Shown in pieces: positions 3,163 through 8,811 of a DNA stretch of 64,000 nt. The stretch covers positions 62,001-126,000 of the forward strand of contig NZ_AQWM01000001.1 in NCBI RefSeq assembly GCF_000376105.1. Reading direction: 5' to 3'. How positions within the stretch are numbered: the first letter of the stretch is position 1; every line of letters starts with the position of its first letter. The notes below the pieces were generated by a model, which ran no database searches, had not been told where the DNA came from, and saw nothing but the letters and a program-made list of their open reading frames with translations. Both the position numbers and the translations under genes were made by a program. The stretch is from Asticcacaulis benevestitus DSM 16100 = ATCC BAA-896 (GTDB lineage: Bacteria; Pseudomonadota; Alphaproteobacteria; Caulobacterales; Caulobacteraceae).

Positions 3163-4701
3163 TTAGGCCTCGGGCTTGATCACCATGCAATCCAGGTGCT
3201 TGGCCGATATGCTCTTACAAGCGGCGGCGGCCTGTTCCTTGGTCAGGGTGGCGAAGCGGGTGCGATACCAGCCATTGTCGTTCTTGGCGATCTGCGTGGT
3301 GCTGTCCGTCAGGTGCTCGCCAAAGCGCGACTGCATCTTCTTCACCCAGTCACTCGCCAGCGACTTGTCCTTGAAGGCGCCGACCTGAATGGCGTAGGTC
3401 GCCTTCGGATTCTTCTTTTTCTTACCCTTGCTCTTCGGCTCATCGGCATCCGCCAGCTTGGTCTTGGCGTTCTTGGCGGCCGGCTTGGTCTTAGTATTTT
3501 GGGCGGCCACCTTGGTCGCGGCCGGCACGGCCTTCGGCTTGATATCGGCGGCGGTCGGGGCCTTGCTCAGGGTCTGCACCACGTCCGGCGCCGAGACCAT
3601 TGAACTGGCGCGCTGCACATCGACATCCGTGGCATTGGCCTGTTCGCTACCCTCAAGGGTTTCGCGCAGTTGGTCATCTGTCAACGGCTTGTTGTTGCTG
3701 GCCAGCATCGTATAGGAGGTCGGGCTGTCCGGGATGCGGCTTTCGGCGAACATGGCGCGGGTGAATTCGTTCTGCGCCACGGCGATGGTCTCACCGCGCT
3801 GGCGGCGGCTGATGACGTCGAAGCCGGTGCTCATCAGGGTGGTGACGTGCTCGCGGCGCTGGGTCTTGTTGGAACCACCGAGCATGACGGCGATCAGTCG
3901 GTGACCGTTCTTGACCTGCGAGGCGACCAGATTATAGCCGGCGGCGTTGGTAAAGCCCGTCTTCATGCCGTCAACGCCATCCAGACCACGCAAGGGGTTG
4001 TGGTTGACATAGGTGCGGCCGCGGAACTCCTGTGAGGGCAGGTTGAAGTAGTTATAATACTGCGGATAGTCGCGTAAGGTGGCGCGGGCCAAGATCGCGA
4101 GATCGCGCGCCGAAGAGAGCTGGCGGGCATCGGGCAGGCCGTTGGCGTTGACGAAGCGCGTCTGGGTCATGCCCAGGTCCTGCGCGCGAATGGTCATCAT
4201 GGCGGCGAAGCGCTCTTCGGTGCCGCCGATCTTCTCGGCCAGGGCAAGAGCCAGATCGTTGGCGGAATAGAGCGCGACCAGGCGCATCGCGGTATCGACG
4301 TCGATCGTGTCGCCGGCCTTGAGGTAAACCTTCACGGGGGCCTGGGAAGCAGCGCGGGCGCTGATGGTGATCTGGTCGGTCGGCTTGAGCTTGCCCTGGG
4401 CCAGGGCGTCGAACGCCATGTAGAGCGTCATGATCTTGGTCAGCGAAGCCGGATAGCGGGCTGAATCGGCACGACGGGCGTAAAACACTTCGCCGGTCTG
4501 GGCATCGACCACGATGGCCGCATACTTGGCGTTATCGCCCGGATCCTGCGCGCTGGCCGAAGCCGGCAGCAGAAGTGTCATGAAGGCCAGCATGGACAGG
4601 AGCAGGGCGACAACGCCCTTTCCCCCCAACACAACGTCCCCAAAAATTTGGCCTGTCGTCCGCCCGATCATACGCATCAAAGCTGTCCTTAACTCTATCA
4701 A
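3163..4701 (-). CDS. D-alanyl-D-alanine carboxypeptidase with C-terminal SPOR domain
   Basis: This is a class A low-molecular-weight penicillin-binding protein that trims the terminal D-Ala from peptidoglycan stem peptides in the periplasm. A hydrophobic signal segment (about 28-50, ending ASASA) precedes the S11 peptidase domain with all three motifs: SLTK (Ser86 nucleophile, Lys89), SAN (146-148) and KTG (247-249). A lysine/alanine-rich linker (about 375-430) leads to a C-terminal SPOR domain (YAIQVGAFKDKS... to the end), which in known proteins binds denuded septal glycan. The 512-residue length and architecture are typical of alphaproteobacterial DacA/DacF-type proteins. It probably acts at the division site. 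A perfect CtrA box lies about 120 bases upstream. Confidence 0.92.
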   Translation of the reverse strand: MIELRTALMRMIGRTTGQIFGDVVLGGKGVVALLLSMLAFMTLLLPASASAQDPGDNAKYAAIVVDAQTGEVFYARRADSARYPASLTKIMTLYMAFDALAQGKLKPTDQITISARAASQAPVKVYLKAGDTIDVDTAMRLVALYSANDLALALAEKIGGTEERFAAMMTIRAQDLGMTQTRFVNANGLPDARQLSSARDLAILARATLRDYPQYYNYFNLPSQEFRGRTYVNHNPLRGLDGVDGMKTGFTNAAGYNLVASQVKNGHRLIAVMLGGSNKTQRREHVTTLMSTGFDVISRRQRGETIAVAQNEFTRAMFAESRIPDSPTSYTMLASNNKPLTDDQLRETLEGSEQANATDVDVQRASSMVSAPDVVQTLSKAPTAADIKPKAVPAATKVAAQNTKTKPAAKNAKTKLADADEPKSKGKKKKNPKATYAIQVGAFKDKSLASDWVKKMQSRFGEHLTDSTTQIAKNDNGWYRTRFATLTKEQAAAACKSISAKHLDCMVIKPEA

Positions 4702-5577: not shown

Positions 5578-5624
5578 GACTCTGGTCGCTAAACTCTAAG
5601 GCCCTAAAGGCCTGAGAATGCCGA

Positions 5625-5662
5625 GCCTCGCACCTTCACCGGTGCGGGGCTTTTCTTTTTTC
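5625..5662 (+). terminator. Intrinsic terminator of the phasin gene
   Basis: GCCTCGCACC / GGTGCGGGGC stem (5625-5634 with 5641-5650, one U-G pair) with a six-base loop, followed by TTTTCTTTTTT. Confidence 0.85.
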
Positions 5663-5871
5663 AGCGGTGCACCATATGGACGTTTCCCTCATAAGCGTCA
5701 CAATTCGACATCACACCCCATAAACTGTGATCGCGTTGCATCATGTTTGTGCATTTACCCCCTTAACAGCGTCCTCATTTGGACTATCTTGTTATTAGGC
5801 GACTCCTGCATATCTAGAGGGAGGGCTGGGAACATCGGTCCGGAAATAGCCAGAAAACGAACAGATACGAG

Positions 5872-6249
5872 ATGAGATTGGTTTTGACACACGACGGGCA
5901 GAACGCAGCGCAACGGATCATGGCGGCCGACAAGGGCACCACGACCAGGCCCGGACAGGCGCCGGGATTGCTGATCGATACCAAGCCCAAGCCACAAAAG
6001 CCTTCGCTCTATCGCGTGCTGATTCTGAACGACGACTACACGCCGATGGAATTCGTGGTCTATGTGCTTGAGCGCTTCTTCAACAAGTCGCGCGAAGAGG
6101 CCACCCTGATCATGTTGCACGTCCATCAAACCGGTGTGGGGGTGTGCGGCGTATACACGTATGAGGTGGCGGAAACCAAGGTGGCGCAGGTCGTGGATAT
6201 GGCACGCCGTCATCAGCACCCACTCCAGTGCACGATGGAGAAAGACTGA
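5872..6249 (+). CDS. clpS: ClpS, N-degron adaptor of ClpAP
   Basis: ClpS binds proteins with destabilising N-terminal residues and delivers them to ClpA. The core from [19 protein letters not shown] to [10 protein letters not shown] is near-identical to Caulobacter ClpS. The N-degron pocket residues are visible as Asn53, Asp54 and Asp55 (LNDDYTP) and His85 (HVHQTG), numbered from the ATG at 5872. That start gives 125 residues; the ATG at 5920 would give 109 and drops a weakly conserved N-terminus. Neither start has a good Shine-Dalgarno, so the start is unresolved. ClpA lies 246 bases downstream, the usual clpS-clpA order. A second copy of the last 12 codons lies just after the stop. Confidence 0.95.
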
Positions 6250-6281
6250 AGTTATGCTGATGACAAACATGCAAAACTGCC

Positions 6282-6320
6282 CATCAGCATCCGCTTCAAT
6301 GCACGATGGAGAAGGACTAA
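6282..6320 (+). pseudogene. Remnant of a second clpS 3' end
   Basis: These 39 bases encode [12 protein letters not shown] and a stop, exactly the last 12 residues of ClpS, in the spacer 33 bases after the intact gene. Compared with 6211-6249 the copy differs at six positions. All six are third-base or stop-codon changes (CAC/CAT, CCA/CCG, CTC/CTT, CAG/CAA, AAA/AAG, TGA/TAA), and none alters the peptide. Upstream of the His codon the similarity ends abruptly. It looks like the tail of a diverged but functional clpS left behind after replacement of the rest. Confidence 0.75.
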
Positions 6321-6495
6321 CCGGAGAAACTTAGACGGCCGGGATTTTATCTAAATTCTATCTACAGGGTTCAGATCAGGTTCAGACTGCCACGATTAAC
6401 GTCTGGTAGGGTTAATGTCTTAAACCATAAGTAAGATTTTAAGCCCACAGTTTTGATTTGAGTAACAGCGTTTTCAAGATTTATTGGAGGTCGTC

Positions 6496-8811
<2,316 letters not shown>

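Follow-up and report, generated by a model that had tools for sequence, protein, structure and literature searches.

Introduction

Prophage e14 of Escherichia coli has its own integrase, and phage 21 represents the same icd-type case. Integron attC cassette arrays consist of short head-to-tail units with folded single-strand sites. According to the parts of the source available to us (PMC6379469), e14 is an element of about 15 kb that inserts near the 3′ end of icd and provides the gene with a new end, the original one persisting downstream as a duplicated fragment. SGI1, an example of the islands found at gene 3′ ends, inserts near the stop codon of the housekeeping gene trmE, as far as described in the excerpt that we consulted. 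REP and RPE palindromes as well as MITEs are small hairpin-forming DNAs which can sit within genes (excerpts of PMC3733652 and PMC10969869), and quasipalindrome or template-switch mutation homogenises the arms of inverted repeats (excerpts of PMC8794818 and PMC8604942).

Here we describe a locus with features of several of these systems, the end of the protease-adaptor gene clpS in Asticcacaulis. An original prediction, made from the DNA letters of Asticcacaulis benevestitus, had proposed that a second clpS tail downstream of the gene was left over when recombination replaced a diverged clpS. We favor, tentatively and with somewhat less than even confidence, a reading in which the clpS end has been displaced again and again by a miniature hairpin unit inserting at one spot, codons 112/113-114. 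No prior description of the phenomenon was found in the open-access literature searched, which yielded no paper on Asticcacaulis with clpS; this is weak evidence of novelty.

Results

The end of clpS recurs downstream of its stop codon

The window, i.e., the whole stretch of DNA analyzed, comprises 64,000 nt of the A. benevestitus genome (G000). Its ClpS protein was matched in 61 of 61 genomes (G000 and 60 relatives), with 100% identity in the sister genome G022; for clpA, the homolog in G010 showed 94% identity. The features of the locus are as follows.

5872 to 6249, + strand: clpS, an open reading frame of 125 amino acids, the last 12 codons and stop codon of which are supplied by the putative inserted unit
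6209 to 6218, + strand: upstream arm of an inverted repeat, GTCATCAGCA, from the end of codon 113 to codon 116
6211 to 6249, + strand: tail 1, translated, with the final 12 codons of clpS and TGA; closest to tail 1 of G015 (1 of 39 nt different)
6211 to 6281, + strand: putative inserted unit of 71 nt, measured between the starts of the two tails; missing in the sister genome G022, with comparable units in 11 of 24 genomes
6255 to 6264, + strand: downstream arm of the inverted repeat, complement of the upstream arm
6265 to 6281, + strand: spacer end, of loose likeness between arrays, with ..ATGNCGN ahead of the next tail in most of them (compared by eye)
6282 to 6320, + strand: tail 2, an untranslated remnant, probably the displaced resident clpS end; its 3′ flank corresponds to the G022 flank
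6321 to 6495, + strand: resident clpS-clpA spacer, 3 of 172 nt different from G022
6496 to 8811, + strand: clpA, with ATG at 6496; the mechanical open reading frame begins at a TTG at 6484

The recurrence of the last 12 clpS codons and the stop codon, on which the original prediction had been built, is real: positions 6211-6249 are copied at 6282-6320 with six differences, all of them synonymous. The gap between the copies is 32 nt (6250-6281) and not 33 nt as had been stated. Each copy comprises 39 nt, and the differences are located at the 0-based offsets 8, 11, 14, 17, 32, and 37, including the TGA/TAA exchange. An independent repeat search recovered 6211-6247 and 6282-6318 with 86% identity and a spacing of 71. 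As 18 of the 117 possible single-base changes in the tail stretch are silent, random placement would yield six silent changes out of six with P ≈ 1.3e-5.

The ends of 4334 mechanical open reading frames were scanned for similar copies in 864 kb, composed of the window and of 400 kb of G020, 200 kb of G007, and 200 kb of G009; ends at the very edges of a stretch were counted but skipped. A match required that the last 36 nt were copied with at least 26 of 36 identities within 250 nt, a threshold that weaker copies escape. Seven matches were obtained, three of which were the clpS tails of the three genomes with clpS inside the scan. The other four had 35-36 of 36 identities, and the three inspected resembled intergenic repeats. 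Hence, a diverged, peptide-keeping tail copy was found at no gene besides clpS in the 864-kb sample among copies with at least 26 of 36 identities. The low odds of silent-only differences and the rarity of such copies in the scan place the clpS tail copy beyond chance.

Two observations on other repeats were made in G020. Intergenic-looking tandem repeats with a period of 113 nt are present at about 5240-5640 of L177 and 16600-16900 of L184, about 151 kb apart, and form a repeat family of their own. At about 800-960 of L193, on the minus strand, a direct repeat with a period of 84 nt and 36 of 36 identities spans the end of an open frame.

Tandem clpS tails are patchily distributed within the genus

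Two or three clpS tails in tandem were present in 11 of the 24 readable genomes of the same genus (G000, G018, G020, G007, G015, G005, G009, G006, G001, G019, and G011), whereas 13 of the 24 were single-tailed. In all 11 arrays successive tail starts lie 62-93 nt apart, and the tails are nearly always silent variants of one peptide. The 25th genome, G010, was left out of the scoring, its contig C21 stopping at codon 113 and C22 beginning in the spacer before clpA. Such an assembly break at the first clpS tail, with resumption in the pre-clpA spacer (L168, L167), is what identical repeated units would be expected to cause. In the genus, the distance from the last tail to clpA is 44-202 nt (its counterpart in the window is 6321-6495), and clpS and clpA are 4-14 nt apart in the 20 closest loci from beyond the genus (L002-L021, mostly of the same family by title).

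Within the 24 genomes of the genus that matched the tail pattern (≤ 3 mismatches), it occurred at clpS and nowhere else. In the rest of the family, a tandem tail was found in none of the 336 genomes with a match (365 searched with ≤ 2 mismatches, which more diverged tandem copies would escape). Two tail matches occurred in G028, G074, G331, G381, and G401, each time on two separate contigs. G028 has two clpS-clpA loci on different contigs (L113, L114), one of them cut by the contig end, reflecting either mixed strains or a real second copy.

Outside the genus, 1 of 103 loci contained a second tail within 360 nt, which is part of a complete second clpS-like frame in the Mesorhizobium record L069. 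In this MAG the second frame, at about 4001-4580 between clpS and clpA, is shorter and has the same NQHPLQC end. The tails of the genus might, by analogy, be remnants of a full second clpS that once stood between clpS and clpA, and the Mesorhizobium locus documents that such a frame does occur there. We regard this origin as extremely improbable, because the spacers in the genus contain an inverted repeat (see below) and no recognizable clpS sequence, up to three tails follow one another at regular distances, and clpS gave just one match in each of the 25 genus genomes.

When array presence was mapped onto a tree of clpS body plus clpA, the minimum was nine state changes, gains and losses not being distinguished by the tree, and seven of these were forced by well-supported branches. 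On an outgroup-bearing tree eight changes were forced. The presence of arrays is patchy and recurrent and clusters no more than shuffled labels on the tree. The row of G015 forms a long branch in both trees.

The outermost tail corresponds to the single tail of relatives

Possession of the same spacer copy by all close relatives, which would have counted against a replacement, was not observed: G022, which forms a node with G000 with a support of 100/100 on the clpS+clpA tree and has an identical ClpS protein, has a single tail. Its clpS body differs from that of G000 at 11 of 270 positions, and the flank past its tail matches the G000 flank past tail 2 (3 of 172 differences). In two further pairs, the outermost array tail and the only tail of the relative agree at 39 of 39 positions, namely in G007/G008, although the bodies differ at 29 of 270 positions, and in G006/G023. 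Tail 1 of these arrays differs from the single tail of the relative at six (G007/G008) and five (G006/G023) positions, all silent, and its codons are therefore foreign to the nearest relatives. In both pairs a substitute gene end has been supplied and the old end left behind, a trait of icd/e14-type elements. The G022 flank and the two perfect outermost-tail matches suggest that the outer tail is the displaced resident one and that the translated tail is a newcomer that arrived with a unit of about 71 nt.

G000/G022 is a less clean before/after case, because 7 of 39 positions distinguish tail 2 of G000 from the tail of G022, suggesting that the tail of G000, of G022, or of both has been exchanged since the split. 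Tail 1 of G000 is closest to tail 1 of G015, although the bodies of these genomes differ at 58 of 270 positions, followed by tail 1 of the G006 group (2 of 39), and tail 2 is closest to that of G024 (2 of 39). The expectation that the gene and the remnant group with different relatives was therefore borne out for the tails but not for the clpS body. Likewise, the extra tail does look as if it had terminated a formerly functional clpS whose silent codons were different, and DNA with other codons has been imported, but the body of clpS was kept and still groups with G022, the import being restricted to the short unit. The original prediction is thus partly supported: the remnant of a gene end and the import of DNA were correctly recognized, but the gene itself was not replaced.

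Four arrays have three copies. Their two inner tails are identical or one base apart, while the outermost tail differs from the inner ones at five to eight positions in three of these arrays and by one peptide-changing base in G020. Changed codons in the outermost tail were found in G020, G019, and G011. The claim that a simple tandem slip does not account for the pattern agrees with the comparison of first and outermost tails, which in the 11 arrays, partly non-independent, revealed 54 silent versus three peptide-changing codons; it does not extend to the inner units of three-copy arrays, which resemble simple tandem copies.

First tails share further properties. They begin with CATCAGCA in eight of eight array types compared to four of 13 single tails (P = 0.005; G001, G011, and G019 were dropped as near-copies of G006), and first tails of different clades, as grouped by us, are more alike than under random swapping of first and last tails (P = 0.03). 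Genus pairs with a body difference of about 2.2% differed by 11.1% in their tails (four pairs) and those with 4.4% by 9.2% (19 pairs), whereas outside the genus body differences of 1.5% and 4.4% corresponded to tail differences of 0.0% (four pairs) and 4.4% (five pairs), the pairs being non-independent in all these comparisons. In distant genus pairs the tail excess was gone (body 17.2%, tails 17.8%, 174 pairs). A search of the flanks of 24 genomes for decayed old tails gave weak signals only, in G013, G002, and G014 (2-4 of 60 shuffles equal).

Differences rise close to codon His114 in pairs of unlike array state

In five pairs differing in array state, 22 of 410 positions differed from -90 to -8, compared to 9 of 40 in the 8 nt directly preceding His114 (P = 0.0007), a limit which was picked after the positions had been seen. 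Four same-state pairs showed 29 of 328 and 2 of 32 differences, respectively. These nine pairs are a subset of 12 state-differing and 14 same-state pairs, in which the last 8 nt differed by 20.8 and 8.0%, respectively. The breakpoint that had been proposed at the His codon is therefore sharp by this post hoc limit, and the left edge of the unit may be situated as much as 8 nt further upstream than indicated above. In the two pairs that allowed the right boundary to be placed (G007/G008 and G006/G023), it was located 2 nt ahead of the tail.

These boundaries bear on the main alternative, ordinary homologous recombination, which is closest to the earlier idea of replacement but on a smaller scale. 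Here, array DNA from a relative would pair via clpS on the left and via the tail on the right and thereby carry the unit in, and the array would be an old feature of the genus that has been spread and lost by recombination and slippage. Homology on both sides is indeed provided by clpS and the tails, and the near-identical tandem inner units of the four three-copy arrays fit this explanation. In addition, a sliding-window view of close pairs showed the excess difference already rising from about -90, partly via a mosaic in G017/G012, and G016 and G023, which are both single-tailed and stand outside the four controls, differ strongly at the tail as well (3 of 8 in the last 8 nt, 7 of 36 in the tail). 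Homologous recombination does not account for the clustering of left boundaries within 8 nt of His114 and of right ones 2 nt before the tail, as random crossovers should scatter, and it leaves the first origin of the unit unexplained. We consider it unlikely, while giving it real weight.

The mosaic itself consists of ten differences between G017 and G012 at -85 to -49 before His114, surrounded by near-identical stretches, and looks like a short imported tract. This patch suggests that short-tract recombination acts at the clpS end too.

An inverted repeat follows the stop codon in all arrays

In G000 the arm GTCATCAGCA has a perfect 10-bp complement 3′ of the clpS stop codon, which was equalled in none of 200 shuffles. 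Downstream of the stop codon, 11 of 11 arrays contain codons ~112-116 once more in inverted orientation, sometimes imperfectly. In ten of them this copy measures 9-16 bp and has no more than one mismatch; in G015 it comprises 7 bp, or 11 bp if the arm is extended into the stop codon. The match was equalled in 0 of 200 shuffles for nine arrays, in 2 of 200 for G018, and in 6 of 200 for G015. The 13 single-tail genomes lacked it except for an imperfect trace in G017 and G012 (5 and 11 of 200 shuffles).

The sequence of the downstream arm follows the codons of the genome in which it lies. Among 40320 reassignments of arms between the eight array types, 40 were as good as the actual one, and 48 when the part matching codons 112-113 was used (G019 stands for the G006 group, and the test is uncorrected for relatedness). 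The fit is imperfect, as G018 and G020 have an arm mismatch and the match is shorter in three of the four G006-group genomes. This agreement would be expected if the inverted repeat and the second tail had arisen on the spot through fold-back template switching during replication, which would also keep the arms matched. Hairpin arms can be both generated and mended by this process (PMC8794818, in the part available to us). A tail of local origin should, however, begin identical to the resident one, yet tail 1 differs from it at the five to six silent sites seen in G006/G023 and G007/G008. Template switching thus explains the matching of the arms but not the foreign tail, and as the origin of the arrays we judge it quite improbable; it may nevertheless keep the arms matched under insertion and recombination alike.

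Compared to mononucleotide shuffles, the array ends folded with z values of -2.0 to -5.0 in 10 of 11 cases (G020, -0.2), while z was -1.0 or weaker in 12 of 13 single-tail genomes (G017, -2.4). These folds, together with the covariation of arms and codons, are also consistent with selection for a hairpin in the terminal part of the clpS mRNA, acting on stability or on control of clpA, for which both tails would be retained. Such a hairpin is dispensable in 13 of 24 genomes, the arm fails to pair with tail 2 in G006 and G019, and the outermost tails of G020, G019, and G011 have a changed codon. Taken together, this makes selection for an RNA hairpin very improbable as the cause of the arrays.

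An attenuator-like pairing of the arm with tail 2 was considered separately and rejected because it is not conserved. CGTC-tagged REPs were rejected too, CGTC being a coincidence of arginine codons that is replaced by CGC or CGG in other arrays. A search of window positions 5600-6600 against Rfam gave two weak matches, both far under the gathering threshold.

No element body or recombinase gene lies within the arrays

From the first tail to the start of clpA the distance is ≤ 395 nt in the 24 genus genomes, which provides no space for a recombinase gene. Of 80 loci outside the genus, 78 gave a distance, the largest clpS-clpA gap being 372 nt; of the other two, L081 has clpA on the other side and L027 has none. 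A large element between clpS and clpA was found neither in the 24 genus genomes nor in these outside loci. Similarly, no element body with a recombinase was present between the gene-end copies, as only 62-93 nt separate the tail starts in 11 of 11 arrays. The arrays might be scars of a larger integrative element, a prophage or island, which used the clpS 3′ end as attachment site and lost its body so that two site copies remained. The anatomy, with an element supplying the gene end and the old end duplicated, is that of icd/e14 (PMC6379469, as far as its available parts go). The short distances within and outside the genus speak against such a scar, as does the fact that the units of all array types are alike in size and organization, which would not be expected of random internal deletions, and we therefore regard it as improbable.

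Searches for the unit elsewhere found none in viral contigs, phages, and plasmids at the sensitivity used. Three plasmid matches turned out to be ordinary clpS genes, and one phage match comprised 26 nt with an E value of 0.4. An integron integrase (TIGR02249) above the cut-off was detected in 0 of 25 genus genomes, with weaker matches in all 25 and in all 14 controls. Other tyrosine recombinases are abundant in the 25 genomes. To our knowledge, a DNA circle of 71 nt is very small for known integrases. The Y1 transposase PF01797 was found in 4 of 25 genomes (G008, G010, G015, and G020) and was missing from 9 of the 11 array genomes, at variance with a REP/RAYT or IS200/IS605 system. The unit is also not a dispersed multi-copy repeat of the REP or MITE kind, as the tail pattern was limited to clpS in the 24 genus genomes and a hairpin pattern looked for in G000 had a single occurrence.

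Discussion

In the reading that we favor, a unit of ~62-77 nt (93 nt in one place) would insert repeatedly at codons 112/113-114 of clpS. It would bring in substitute last 12 codons and a stop codon, behind which codons ~112-116 in inverted orientation and then a short spacer would lie; in the window, its content would be tail 1 with its stop codon, a linker, the inverted repeat, and the spacer end. The ClpS protein would stay unchanged because the unit supplies substitute codons and a stop codon. After insertion the new tail would be translated, and the resident tail would come to lie untranslated downstream, where it might be free to decay. Inserted units may later be lost or copied in tandem.

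We infer that the insertion would be site-specific and depend on the hairpin, and that an enzyme with its gene at another locus would drive it in place of ordinary recombination, similar to elements which integrate into a gene 3′ end and rebuild it. In its full form, i.e., a gene-less mobile unit of about 71 nt at a single host gene, with the 3′ end rebuilt in silent codons within its own hairpin loop, site-specific insertion by an enzyme acting in trans and repeated passage between species of one genus, the proposal is doubtful. Against insertion count the occurrence of the unit at clpS only and the fact that the spacers of different clades are only loosely alike. Furthermore, the G016/G023 pair and the post hoc choice of the 8-nt limit weigh slightly against site-specific insertion and in favor of homologous recombination.

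If the proposal is true, gene-end rebuilding, which is known for kilobase-sized islands and phages, shrinks to a gene-less unit of ~71 nt at one protease-adaptor gene, and an integration reaction of unknown type would be indicated. The silent codon sets would serve as a natural marker for following the unit between species, and clusters of silent differences at gene ends can be imports instead of the result of slow drift.

Integron attC arrays, like the clpS arrays, consist of short head-to-tail units, yet none of the 25 genus genomes has an integron integrase above the cut-off, and no attC core motif was seen by eye in the clpS units. REP, RPE, and MITE sequences share the small hairpin-forming design but are dispersed in many copies, whereas the clpS unit occupies one locus and has the host gene's own coding end as its loop. 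Quasipalindrome or template-switch mutation, as described in the excerpts cited above, does not import foreign silent codons, unlike the change that occurred in the clpS arrays. The insertion near a housekeeping-gene stop codon recalls SGI1 in trmE, the clpS case being one without an element body. In outcome the arrays resemble e14 in icd, with its insertion near the 3′ end, substitute gene end and duplicated old end; in contrast to e14, the clpS unit comprises only ~71 nt, is devoid of genes, contains an inverted repeat, and recurs in tandem.
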